Shown: positions 50,549 through 54,485 of the stretch, one piece after another
Position numbering within the stretch: position 1 is the stretch's first letter
Layout of the letters: every line of letters starts with the position of its first letter
Assembly (NCBI GenBank): GCA_009777245.1
Contig: WRMF01000006.1
Span: forward strand, 1-64,000
Direction: 5' to 3'
DNA from: Betaproteobacteria bacterium
GTDB taxonomy: Bacteria > Pseudomonadota > Gammaproteobacteria > Burkholderiales > Rhodocyclaceae
DNA: 64,000 bases
Notes under the pieces: model-generated
What the model was told of the DNA's origin: nothing
What the model saw: only the letters and a program-made list of their open reading frames with translations
The model's database searches: none
Translations under genes and position numbers: made by a program

Positions 50549-50586
50549 GAAAACGCCCCTGGGCTTCAAGCCCAGGGGATGTTTTC
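50549..50586. terminator. Strong bidirectional terminator hairpin
   Basis: CCCCTGGGCTT and AAGCCCAGGGG pair perfectly, flanked by GAAAAC and GTTTTC that extend the stem and give T runs in both directions. It separates comF from the convergent lipoprotein gene. Confidence 0.8.
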
Positions 50587-50614: not shown

Positions 50615-51274
50615 CTATTGCGTCGCTTGGGGTTGCGCTATGAGCAGAGACCGCTCAGGCAGGCCAATAGCCTTGCACAGAGCGTCAAGTCCGGCCTGGA
50701 ATAAAGCTATCGGCTGCATAGCCTGATCCAGCGGCAGTTCAACTTCAATTGCTGTGACAGACTCCCCGACTGCCCTAATCGCTTTTAATACGACTACGGC
50801 TGTTTGTGCGTAAGTATATTTAACTGACCCGTCAAGATCCCCGAACAACAGCATGTTAGACATTTCCTGTCCGAGTACATCATACCCTTCTCGCCTTGCA
50901 ACAAGCGAATCTGGTTGCTCAGCGTATTTCCCCAGACTTATCCTTCCGATTCTGCCAGTTATACGAGACGCCTGAAATATCCCGTCCAATTCATACACAA
51001 CTGTGGTCTGATTACGGGAATCTGCAACTTGAATCCCCGCATTAGCCAGCGCGTACCTGAATTCATCAGTCAGACGCGGGCTATCCACCACAACCGCATA
51101 CACGACATTATCCATATCCCCTCTAACATGAACATCGCTATCCGCAATGCGGGTCGCAAGCTGGGATTGCAGAGGCAGTTCATTTGTTTTGCGAGGCGCG
51201 ACACCTCCAACAGCTGCGCATCCAGACAGCACCGTCAGAATCAGCGTGATGGACAGTAGTTTTGCATGTTTCAT
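50615..51274 (-). CDS. Lipoprotein of unknown function, TraN cluster
   Basis: Lipoprotein of 219 residues with a signal peptide ending LTVLSGCAA (lipobox LSGC), AAGGAGA before the ATG. The body has a YALANAGIQVADSRNQTTVVYEL segment and conserved-looking RIGRISLGKY and DGSVKYTYAQTAVVVLKAI parts. I do not recognise a named family. The helix followed by a V-rich strand resembles the segment REAFRKSGYEVVANEADSKA in the exported protein two genes upstream, so they may share a fold. It is last in a four-gene minus-strand cluster. Confidence 0.7.
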   Translation of the reverse strand: MKHAKLLSITLILTVLSGCAAVGGVAPRKTNELPLQSQLATRIADSDVHVRGDMDNVVYAVVVDSPRLTDEFRYALANAGIQVADSRNQTTVVYELDGIFQASRITGRIGRISLGKYAEQPDSLVARREGYDVLGQEMSNMLLFGDLDGSVKYTYAQTAVVVLKAIRAVGESVTAIEVELPLDQAMQPIALFQAGLDALCKAIGLPERSLLIAQPQATQ

Positions 51275-51401: not shown

Positions 51402-52918
51402 CTATAAGCCCAACCCAAGGCAACCGTCGTCCCAAGTGTCTGTGCAGATGGGGTCGCAGTACCAGTGAACAAAAAAGGTCACACTCCACATGGCTGTGCT
51501 GTACCCATTGGCGTTATGGATTGAGAGTACGTTTTTGCCCTCTTTGAGCAAATGTCGTATGTCCAGAGTGTGATTGCGCCCACTGCCAATATCACCCCGA
51601 TTTAACTGGGGATAAGCCAGTCTGCTGGCCTGAGTGGTTGGACATTGGGATGCGGTTCCTGTGCAAGTCCCGTTATACAACACATCAAATCCACCAGGAA
51701 ACACGGATGTTGCACGAACGAATCGTGTCAGACAATTATCGTTCCCGCCATAATGCGGCGCGCCAGAAGAGCAAGAACCGCCTGTTTTTGGTCCATATAC
51801 GCTCCTGCCGGAGATGTGCATGACCACAAAATCGTCATTCATCTGTATTGCGGGAATATCATCACCAACCAAATGAGTCAGCTCAAATCTTGCTATATTG
51901 CTGACACCTACCACGCTAAATTCAAATTGAGTTGTTGACAAGGCAATTCCGCTGTTTTGTGTAGTGGAAAAGCGCATCCGACCTGTCCCGAAGTCATGTC
52001 CGATAGCTATGCCGACATTATGCGAAGTGTAAATTTGCCGTACAGAGGAATAATCAACCCCATGAATATCGCAATTACCGCCGCCCGGCCTGCACGTGAC
52101 CACCAGAGTGCGATTGCAGTTCAGCGTCTGCCTGTTCTCGGGCTTGATGTCGCATTGATACCTCTTTTTCCAATCCACATCCACAACATTGCCTACTGAA
52201 CACTGCCCCGTCCCCAGTTGCGATAGCGTGTGCCTGCATTGATAAAGGTGATCCGCGTCAATGTCCAGAACATGACCTATGGAGCAGAAAACGTCGTCAG
52301 GGTCATGCGCCAGCTCCTCACCGCAAACTTCGTACTCGAAGTCCCCGCCGTGATCGAGCGTGACTTCCTTGCAGTCCGTATAATGCCCCATGCCGCCTAC
52401 CCCATAGGCTTCAGGGTCGGCCATGATTTGCTTGCCCAGAAGGATCATCGAGTCGTCCTTCTTGATAAGCATGTCCGCTATACCCCTTGATTCAGCCGCC
52501 TGATTGATCATTCTCACAGCCTCGCACCTTTGCTGGTCGTTTTCAGGGTCGTTGCCCATATTGCACTGCACGTTCAGATTGAACCCGCTTTGAAGCTGCG
52601 GTTGCACAATGCCCTGATCCCCAGTCCAGAACTGGCTGTGTTCGGGCGAGCCGGTATCGAAATCAATGATCTGGCGGACGTAGTCTTCGCTGAAGATGGT
52701 GTTGTACGCTTCCTGACCTGCCACGGAGCCATCTCCTCCCTGCTTGCCGAGATTAAACGCTTCTTCCTGGCTCATCTGTGCAAAAACAGGCGAAGCCACA
52801 AACGCAAAAACGACAGCTATGTATTTGCAATAACCGGATAGGGCAAAACCGTTACCCTGTAGGGGGGGGGGGTAGTATTTCCCAGAGTTAATCCAGGAAG
52901 GAAGAGGGCGCGGGTCAT
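51402..52918 (-). CDS. TraN-like surface protein, N-terminal part, start out of frame by a poly-C tract
   Basis: Cys-rich exported protein. The frame from a GTG at 52799 gives 465 residues, but this cuts into a signal peptide (KYIAVVFAFVASPVFAQ) that is only complete upstream. An ATG at 52918 with AGGAAA in front, 16 bases after the previous stop, is one base out of frame: a C11 run (52862-52872) would need 12 or 9 C to join it, giving 505 residues. The body has paired cysteines (CNMGNDPENDQQRC, CSIGHVLDIDADHLYQC, CSVGNVVDVDWKKRYQC) and a lectin-like second half, compatible with TraN mating-pair stabilisation proteins, but lacks the TraN C terminus, which is encoded two genes upstream. It is probably phase-variable, or a sequencing artefact. 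Confidence 0.65.
52862..52872. repeat. Poly-G/poly-C tract (11), candidate contingency locus
   Basis: Eleven G on the plus strand, that is eleven C in the coding direction, between the ribosome-site-bearing ATG (52918) and the signal-peptide codons of the TraN-like gene. With 11 the ATG frame stops soon after; with 12 or 9 it runs through the whole gene. Confidence 0.75.
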
Positions 52919-52934
52919 TGGTGGTTTCCTGGAT

Positions 52935-53783
52935 TTACTCGGACGTGTCAGTCCTGGACGAGGACGATGGCACGGCAGTTATTTTGGGAAAGCGAATTCG
53001 CGGCGCATCCTCTCCGTATGGCTCGAAAATGTCGTCAAACATGCGTTCCAATAAAGGCACTATTGGGATGTGGTTAGCCGATGCGACATACCATCTCCCA
53101 GCCGTAATAGATTTCCCTTCAGAGGCAATTGTGACGTGCACAACGGCTTCCGTGAAATAATTCTTGGTAGCCTTCTTTTTTGCAGGAACGGCGTCAGTTA
53201 GCACATATACCCCACCGGGGACAGAGGAAACCGCCATATGCCCATAGATAGGCGTGTCTTTCAGTTGGAATTGTCTCATTGGGTTTGCGGCGCGGGCTGA
53301 CAAGGCTCTATACGCTGATTCATCCTTAAAGCCCCATTGACCCAATTGCCACAATGGTCCCTTTTTCATCCAAACGCAATGAGTCGCCGCATCAATTAGT
53401 GCGCCAAGTAAGCTGCCTGAACCGGCGCGCTTTGCCTGAGTAGACCCGTCGTCATTTACCTTTACGTCAATCCGGATTCTGACTACAGCCTTGGAATCCG
53501 CCTCATTTGCGACTACTTCATAGCCACTCTTGCGGAATGCCTCTCTTAGCAGCTCCTGTAGCGTATTGTCCCAATCTCCATCATCATAAATCGAAACCCA
53601 CATAGGCTTGTTGGAAATAGAGATGTCGGGGTCTATGAGCTGACGGCAGGGAGTTTGATCTGCATAGACAGGCGGAATGCGCAACTCCGCGCTGACCACG
53701 CCAGAAGCCAGAAACAAGACAGGAGCAATACCTGCCAGAAAAAGTCGCTTCAATGCGCGACGATTCAAGAAACGTTCAATCAT
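52935..53783 (-). CDS. Exported protein of unknown function, TraN cluster
   Basis: Protein of 282 residues. The start chosen (MIERFLNRRALKRLFLAG) opens a signal peptide ending ASGVVSA and overlaps the upstream TraN-C gene by eight bases, suggesting coupled translation. Visible: WVSIYDDGDWDNTLQELLREAF, VVRIRIDVKVNDDGST, GALIDAATHCVW, and a Ser-rich tail (VPSSSSRTDTSE). I do not recognise the family. Because it lies between the two halves of a TraN-like protein, a role in assembling or anchoring that surface protein is plausible but unproven. Confidence 0.7.
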   Translation of the reverse strand: MIERFLNRRALKRLFLAGIAPVLFLASGVVSAELRIPPVYADQTPCRQLIDPDISISNKPMWVSIYDDGDWDNTLQELLREAFRKSGYEVVANEADSKAVVRIRIDVKVNDDGSTQAKRAGSGSLLGALIDAATHCVWMKKGPLWQLGQWGFKDESAYRALSARAANPMRQFQLKDTPIYGHMAVSSVPGGVYVLTDAVPAKKKATKNYFTEAVVHVTIASEGKSITAGRWYVASANHIPIVPLLERMFDDIFEPYGEDAPRIRFPKITAVPSSSSRTDTSE

Positions 53784-54432
53784 AATAATTCCCCAGTCCT
53801 TTGGCTGTGTCAATGATGTTCTGCATGGCGCGTTCCTGGGCAAAGGACGAATCTTTATTCGACGGCATATGCCTGATGATGTCGCCAATGAACTCCGAGA
53901 AATCTATCTTATCAAAATCTATCCGGGCAAGTTCAGCTTCAGTAAAACCACGACATTCAGGCGACTTGGCGCTCCCCCATCCCATTCCTATTTGGGGTCG
54001 TGCTTGCTGGTGGATGATTCGCGCCAGCTTGCTTGGGAAGCAGCAATATCCTTCCTTTCGCTCATAGCATCCACCTAAACTTTTACTGGCGCACCACGAG
54101 CCGACGCGATGACAAAGTCCCTGCTTTCTCATCGCCCCGGTTACGAAATCATCATCGTCACACTCCAGGAGCATGGTTATGACCAGGATTATTATAGCGA
54201 TGACGAAACCGACCGGGTTGAAGGCAAAGGCAAACCCAGAACCTCCTACCCCAGCGCCCGCGCCGACATACGAGACGGTTACACCAAAAGTACCTGCGCT
54301 TGTTATACCACCAGCAATTGTTCCCGCAGCAGCACTACTCAACCCTGCCGTTGTTAGCGCACTTTGAATCATATTTGTTAACAACCCTCCAGTACCCTCA
54401 AACCCTGTAAATATATGTTTAGAACCTGACAT
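53776..54432 (-). CDS. TraN C-terminal domain protein (split TraN)
   Basis: Protein of 218 residues. A Gly/Ala-rich hydrophobic N-terminal half (GTIAGGITSAGTFGVTVSYV; GFVIAIIILVITMLLEC) is followed by the conserved TraN ending: CHRVGSWCASKSLGGCYERK, YCCFPSKLARIIHQQARPQI, WGSAKSPECRGFTEAELARI and FDKIDFSEF. In F-like and related systems this block closes a 600-900 residue TraN. Here it is a separate gene, upstream of the gene with the N-terminal-like part. The ATG at 54432 is preferred because the one at 54471 lies inside a perfect palindrome. No other transfer genes are in the window. Confidence 0.8.
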   Translation of the reverse strand: MSGSKHIFTGFEGTGGLLTNMIQSALTTAGLSSAAAGTIAGGITSAGTFGVTVSYVGAGAGVGGSGFAFAFNPVGFVIAIIILVITMLLECDDDDFVTGAMRKQGLCHRVGSWCASKSLGGCYERKEGYCCFPSKLARIIHQQARPQIGMGWGSAKSPECRGFTEAELARIDFDKIDFSEFIGDIIRHMPSNKDSSFAQERAMQNIIDTAKGLGNYYD

Positions 54433-54459
54433 TACAACGTTCTCTACATACGATGATTG

Positions 54460-54485
54460 AGCGACAGGCATGAATGCCTGTCGCT
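54460..54485. repeat. Perfect 26-base palindrome
   Basis: AGCGACAGGCATG is followed directly by AATGCCTGTCGCT, nearly exactly the two outer arms of the repeat at 86-228 without the 117 bases between. It may be a terminator for the convergent-side genes or the empty form of that element. Confidence 0.6.

Follow-up and report, generated by a model that had tools for sequence, protein, structure and literature searches.

The operon and its poly-C tract

The window analysed, a 64 kb stretch of an 88 kb contig, carries a four-gene operon on its minus strand. In order, this encodes a 231-aa protein with a TraN C-terminal domain (53776..54471), a 284-aa exported, weakly lipoprotein-like protein (52935..53789), a Cys-rich TraN N-terminal-like protein, and a 219-aa lipoprotein (50615..51274). 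The third ORF was mechanically listed as a 465-aa product starting at a GTG codon (51402..52799, minus strand), and its frame is open from position 52934. An ATG located 16 nt past the stop codon of the preceding gene (52916..52918, minus strand) begins a leader that reads MTRALFLPGLTLGNTTPPP..., and the sequence AGGAAA, 6 nt upstream of this codon (52925..52930, minus strand), reads as its ribosome-binding site. A run of 11 C residues (52862..52872, minus strand; G11 on the plus strand) begins 46 nt 3′ of the ATG. It thus lies between the start codon and the body of the ORF, where its length sets the reading frame. The hydrophobic core and cleavage region of a signal peptide (YIAVVFAFVASPVFA; 52779..52823, minus strand) are found downstream of the tract.

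In the assembled sequence (C11), translation from ATG 52918 would end after 33 aa. Tracts of 8, 10 or 13 C's would give products of 32, 21 and 22 aa, respectively, the off-frame lengths of 10, 11, 13 and 14 leaving 21–34 codons before a stop. With C9 or C12, in contrast, the product would reach 504 or 505 aa; 486 codons are open 3′ of the tract. A sequence-only reading of this DNA had noted a C11 run that separates an ATG, preceded by a good ribosome site, from an exported Cys-rich ORF, and had proposed that lengths of 9 or 12 would restore a long protein with its signal peptide; both statements were borne out. That reading had also named the use of another start, with a functional signal peptide, as an observation that would count against it. 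The only ATG, GTG or TTG found in the long frame before the end of the signal region is GTG 52799, which falls within the hydrophobic stretch. Over 11-residue stretches, hydropathy peaks at 2.4 in the C12 product but at 0.4 in the product of GTG 52799, so that a protein begun at this GTG would be predicted to carry no export signal. Among ATG, GTG and TTG codons, therefore, none skips the tract while keeping the signal peptide intact, although ATT or ATC may still serve.

No other C/G run in the window exceeds 7 bases. Dinucleotide shuffles of the window contained 0.06 runs of 11 on average, and 6 of 100 shuffles showed one; the length of the tract by itself is thus just moderately improbable, and it is its position that matters. 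The tract is within the length at which mononucleotide tracts are taken to be hypermutable (G/C ≥ 9), and it exceeds the cut-off of 9 applied to G/C runs in a survey of the Neisseria phasome (PMC5953494).

The source of the window is a metagenome-assembled genome (MAG) with poly-C/G junk at several of its contig ends, which makes single-base tract lengths insecure. The true tract might then be a fixed C12 (or C9), misread in a class of sequence that is error-prone, and the gene would simply be on. We consider such an error improbable, as the tract lies deep inside its contig with clean flanks. Moreover, a true C12 would still be long, slippage-prone and placed where the switches of related genes sit, so an error would alter the state of the locus rather than its nature.

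A TraN N-terminal-like protein family

No Pfam or NCBIfam model, including PF06986 and the TraN models, matched the 465/478-aa protein, and a profile search of solved structures returned no convincing relative. Relatives were found by tblastn on betaproteobacterial and Pseudomonas plasmids. Those of Azospira pAZI09 and Sulfuricystis pSTJ1 belong to the same family (28% identity over ∼230 residues); each is annotated as a ‘hypothetical protein’ and is encoded directly after trbC and before traN, in an F-type transfer operon. In pBVIE01 and pSTY a relative precedes a traN, away from pilus genes within the stretch viewed. The one on pBVIE01 hits the TraN model NF009012 in its N-terminal part (1.5e-11). 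An alignment of seven sequences contained 19 invariant columns, 9 of them Cys, which reach the C-terminal W..C motif, indicating that the C-terminus of the window protein is intact. Judged from this alignment and from gene context, it is a complete protein of a TraN N-terminal-like family, as yet uncharacterised, whose genes neighbour traN in F-type transfer operons. The ‘TraN-like’ label given earlier was therefore correct, but it has to be narrowed to this family. The idea that the gene is part of a TraN split by a frameshift was dropped, because proteins of the 465-aa type are encoded by a separate gene in plasmid operons.

The window gene differs from its pAZI09 and pSTJ1 relatives in its 5′ region. 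Plasmid relatives open directly with the signal peptide, have no leader or tract, and in these two plasmids lie inside transfer operons, while the 30-residue leader with its poly-Pro stretch is peculiar to the window gene. The TraN N-terminal-like gene was found in none of 20 sister species, which left no orthologue with which to compare the window locus. Plasmid pSTY (from Pseudomonas sp. VLB120; L241:4503-9111) bears two such genes upstream of a single traN, with divergent C-terminal halves; these are possibly duplicated recognition modules.

An apparently rearranged TraN module

The 231-aa protein matches PF06986 (163-240, 5.6e-26) and NF009019 (329-522/550, 1.8e-45). It aligns with residues 425-616 of a 624-aa TraN ORF and lacks the first ∼400 residues of the full-length protein. 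The 219-aa lipoprotein has distant homologues on conjugative plasmids, its closest match being the 237-aa accessory protein of pSTJ1 (E = 7e-4), whose gene sits between those for the TraN N-terminal-like protein and TraN. The 284-aa protein is probably also an accessory protein of the module, although, taken alone, its similarity to the accessory family falls short of significance. Inverted repeats of 11 bp (54460..54485) and 10 bp (50556..50578), both terminator-like on the plus strand, mark the upstream and downstream edges of the module, respectively. The order of the genes in pSTJ1 is TraN N-terminal-like protein, 237-aa accessory protein, TraN and 243-aa accessory protein; compared with this, the window module appears rotated, and its TraN is cut short on the side that borders a LysR-type gene. 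The G+C content of the module is 49–51%, versus 56–60% for its neighbours. A search for TraU detected none in the genome, the assembly of which is 93% complete and may be missing plasmids. From these features we infer that the four genes form an orphaned, horizontally acquired TraN module. Given its rotated order and the failure to find TraU, the module has probably been domesticated for surface or adhesion use.

The TraN protein of F-type type IV secretion systems (PF06986, NF009019) acts in mating-pair stabilisation, and TraN sensors bind outer-membrane proteins of the recipient (PMC10516633). The window locus resembles this system in that the putatively switched gene specifies a Cys-rich exported protein, the module includes a PF06986 C-terminal protein, and the plasmid relatives match the N-terminal part of TraN models and adjoin traN. 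It differs in the lack of model matches to the 465-aa protein and of a TraU in the genome, in its rotated order and N-terminally truncated TraN, and in that translation runs through a poly-C tract.

The truncated TraN, the altered gene order, the lack of a detected TraU and the lower G+C content might also be expected of a decaying remnant of a conjugative element, in which the frameshift at the C run would be a dead mutation and the gene a pseudogene. This seems unlikely to us, since the frame is open for all 486 codons past the tract, the conserved Cys residues and the C-terminal motif are all kept, and a like tract layout, in some cases in frame, is found at other genes of the genome and the genus.

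Other tracts in the same genome

Tracts were gathered by pattern search plus retrieval of the surrounding regions. Runs of C ≥ 9 away from contig ends are few in this genome. One is a C9 tract (G000:C3:89177-89185, L069) in front of an ORF for a type IV pilin (PF00114, N_methyl), which is off by one: an ATG preceded by GGAGG, 36 nt upstream, meets a stop directly 3′ of the tract, and a single added C would join the frames. The pilin gene is a probable second phase-variable locus. An FkbM methyltransferase gene (L079:238-1329, in contig C28) has a C13 tract that starts at its fifth codon and is in frame, which would correspond to an on state. Its paralogue (G000:C1:174054-175106; 67% identical) starts MTTNSN... 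and has no tract at its start. The FkbM gene with the tract was found only in this genome, so there was no tract length from a sister species for comparison. Two further C10 runs, one in lepA (contig C7, in frame) and one intergenic (contig C35), are not gene-start switches, showing that not all runs are switches.

Runs of 20-47 C/G at contig ends were excluded from the evidence, since several are oriented like outward poly-G read artefacts or are set in low-complexity junk. The ends of contigs C1, C22, C28, C32, C36, C37, C40 and C42 often show long C/G runs together with such junk; some of these may reflect genuine tracts at which the assembly broke off, and others read artefacts. The runs at the ends of C1, C22 and C37 adjoin plausible gene starts. 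The leaders at the C37 end and at the pilin tract are similar (MLTEKVFVINEL-PPP versus MFCKNPFIINDL-PPP in the pilin/C37 comparison).

Poly-C tracts across the genus

Runs of C ≥ 10 were present in all 21 genomes of the genus, at up to 37 per genome, while other genera of the family mostly had 0-5, with few exceptions; since fragmented assemblies and end artefacts inflate some of these counts, interior runs were examined. In sister species, 18 of 58 interior tracts lay at the 5′ end of an ORF with the C's on the coding strand, compared with 13.7% of positions chosen at random (binomial P = 5e-4), although some of the ORFs counted (e.g. L202, L256 and L278) are possibly spurious. In control genera the corresponding figure was 3 of 20 tracts. 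A hydrophobic export or membrane region was found just behind the tract for 11 of 79 C-strand runs in the genus (9 distinct genes, three of the runs belonging to one gene) and for none of the 65 G-strand ones; in the control genera the figures were 0/20 for the C strand and 2/20 for the G strand. The families behind the tracts of sister species have surface or regulatory roles, as expected of such loci, and comprise a TonB receptor, ShlB/FhaC, a PATR autotransporter repeat protein, Acyl_transf_3 and a Crp-type regulator, and also PilY1-like genes, recognised by sequence resemblance with no Pfam match. Some of these genes are in frame with their starts and others out of frame. The remaining PilY1-like relatives found carry no tract, and a comparison of tract lengths between orthologues failed. 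Runs sampled from other genera of the family did not show the layout of start, leader, tract and surface gene.

Long homopolymers can allow transcriptional slippage, and a fixed C11 might by this means, or by slippage of the ribosome, yield some full-length protein with no genetic switching. This appears very improbable, as tract lengths and frames vary in the genus, with genes both on and off, as they do in genetic switches.

A candidate phase-variation switch

The recurrence, at other genes, of a start codon, a short leader, poly-C and then a signal peptide or protein body speaks for the window tract being one of a set; further genes of the genome and genus share the arrangement, with surface functions over-represented. 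The C11 tract is best explained as a translational switch that makes a surface protein phase-variable, an explanation that we regard as likely. The earlier proposal of a phase-variable contingency locus is thus supported both by the anatomy of the locus and by the same layout, on and off, across the genome and the genus.

Slipped-strand mispairing during replication would add or remove C's. With 9, 12, 15... C's, ATG 52918 would be in frame with the signal peptide and the TraN N-terminal-like protein (on); with 10, 11, 13 or 14, an early stop would turn the gene off, and production of the downstream lipoprotein may also drop through polarity. The assembled C11 would represent the off state. 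The module would derive from an F-type conjugation system and now stand alone in the chromosome, most likely serving contact with other cells or surfaces, and its switch would be one of a genus set placed before genes for pili, adhesins, receptors and surface modification. Slippage, length heterogeneity, expression and an adhesion role at the window locus are what we infer.

The closest known likeness is with the Neisseria genes pilC1 and pilC2 (PilY1 family), in which a surface protein associated with the pilus is turned on and off by a G/C homopolymer inside the reading frame (PMC5953494). In sister species G007, a C10 tract separates the ATG of a PilY1-like gene from its signal region. The window gene differs from pilC in being of the TraN type and from a different lineage, and variation in its tract length is a prediction.

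Host setting and wider reading

The closest named relatives by HemA are MAGs labelled Zoogloeaceae; Mcx344_bin48, which identical match positions show to be a member of the genus (G017), is 85% identical. A related MAG with the code Lab288 derives from the termite Labiotermes labralis (PMC7024585). Other MAGs of the genus have sample codes of a format that resembles Lab288, which is the only one tied to a termite in a paper. This uncultured genus is probably one of insect guts, and ‘host-adapted’, as in the earlier reading, is plausible for it.

Phase variation by simple repeats is familiar chiefly from vertebrate pathogens and commensals. A search of the accessible literature returned no study of phase variation in betaproteobacteria of termite guts and no survey of betaproteobacterial homopolymers, which is not proof of absence. 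The switching mechanism is already known, while the lineage that carries it and the TraN-type target appear to be new. A broader reading is that this probably insect-gut, uncultured genus has a genus-wide poly-C phasome, one switch of which governs a conjugation-derived TraN module that has lost its secretion machine and is reused as a cell-contact protein turned on and off at random. We put this forward tentatively, as something a little short of an even chance. If true, a poly-C repertoire that covers pilin, PilY1-like proteins, autotransporters, receptors and glycan modifiers would mean that evolution had arrived at one solution in another kind of host as well. That the switched gene would encode a partner-recognition protein of the TraN type suggests that contact proteins of conjugation can be captured for other cell-contact roles.

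Two observations in sister species concern individual tracts. Genome G012 has two autotransporter-like genes (L260 and L262) with similar leaders, VSRKPISNNDVII and MHREPRLSNDVIT, which are followed by tracts of C17 and C12, respectively. Both genes are out of frame, and a leader made up of start and tract may spread as one unit. In G007 (contig C39, L208), an in-frame C23 lies seven codons into an ORF that resembles subunit 2 of sulfate adenylyltransferase (CysD), which would be an unusual target if this tract is a switch.
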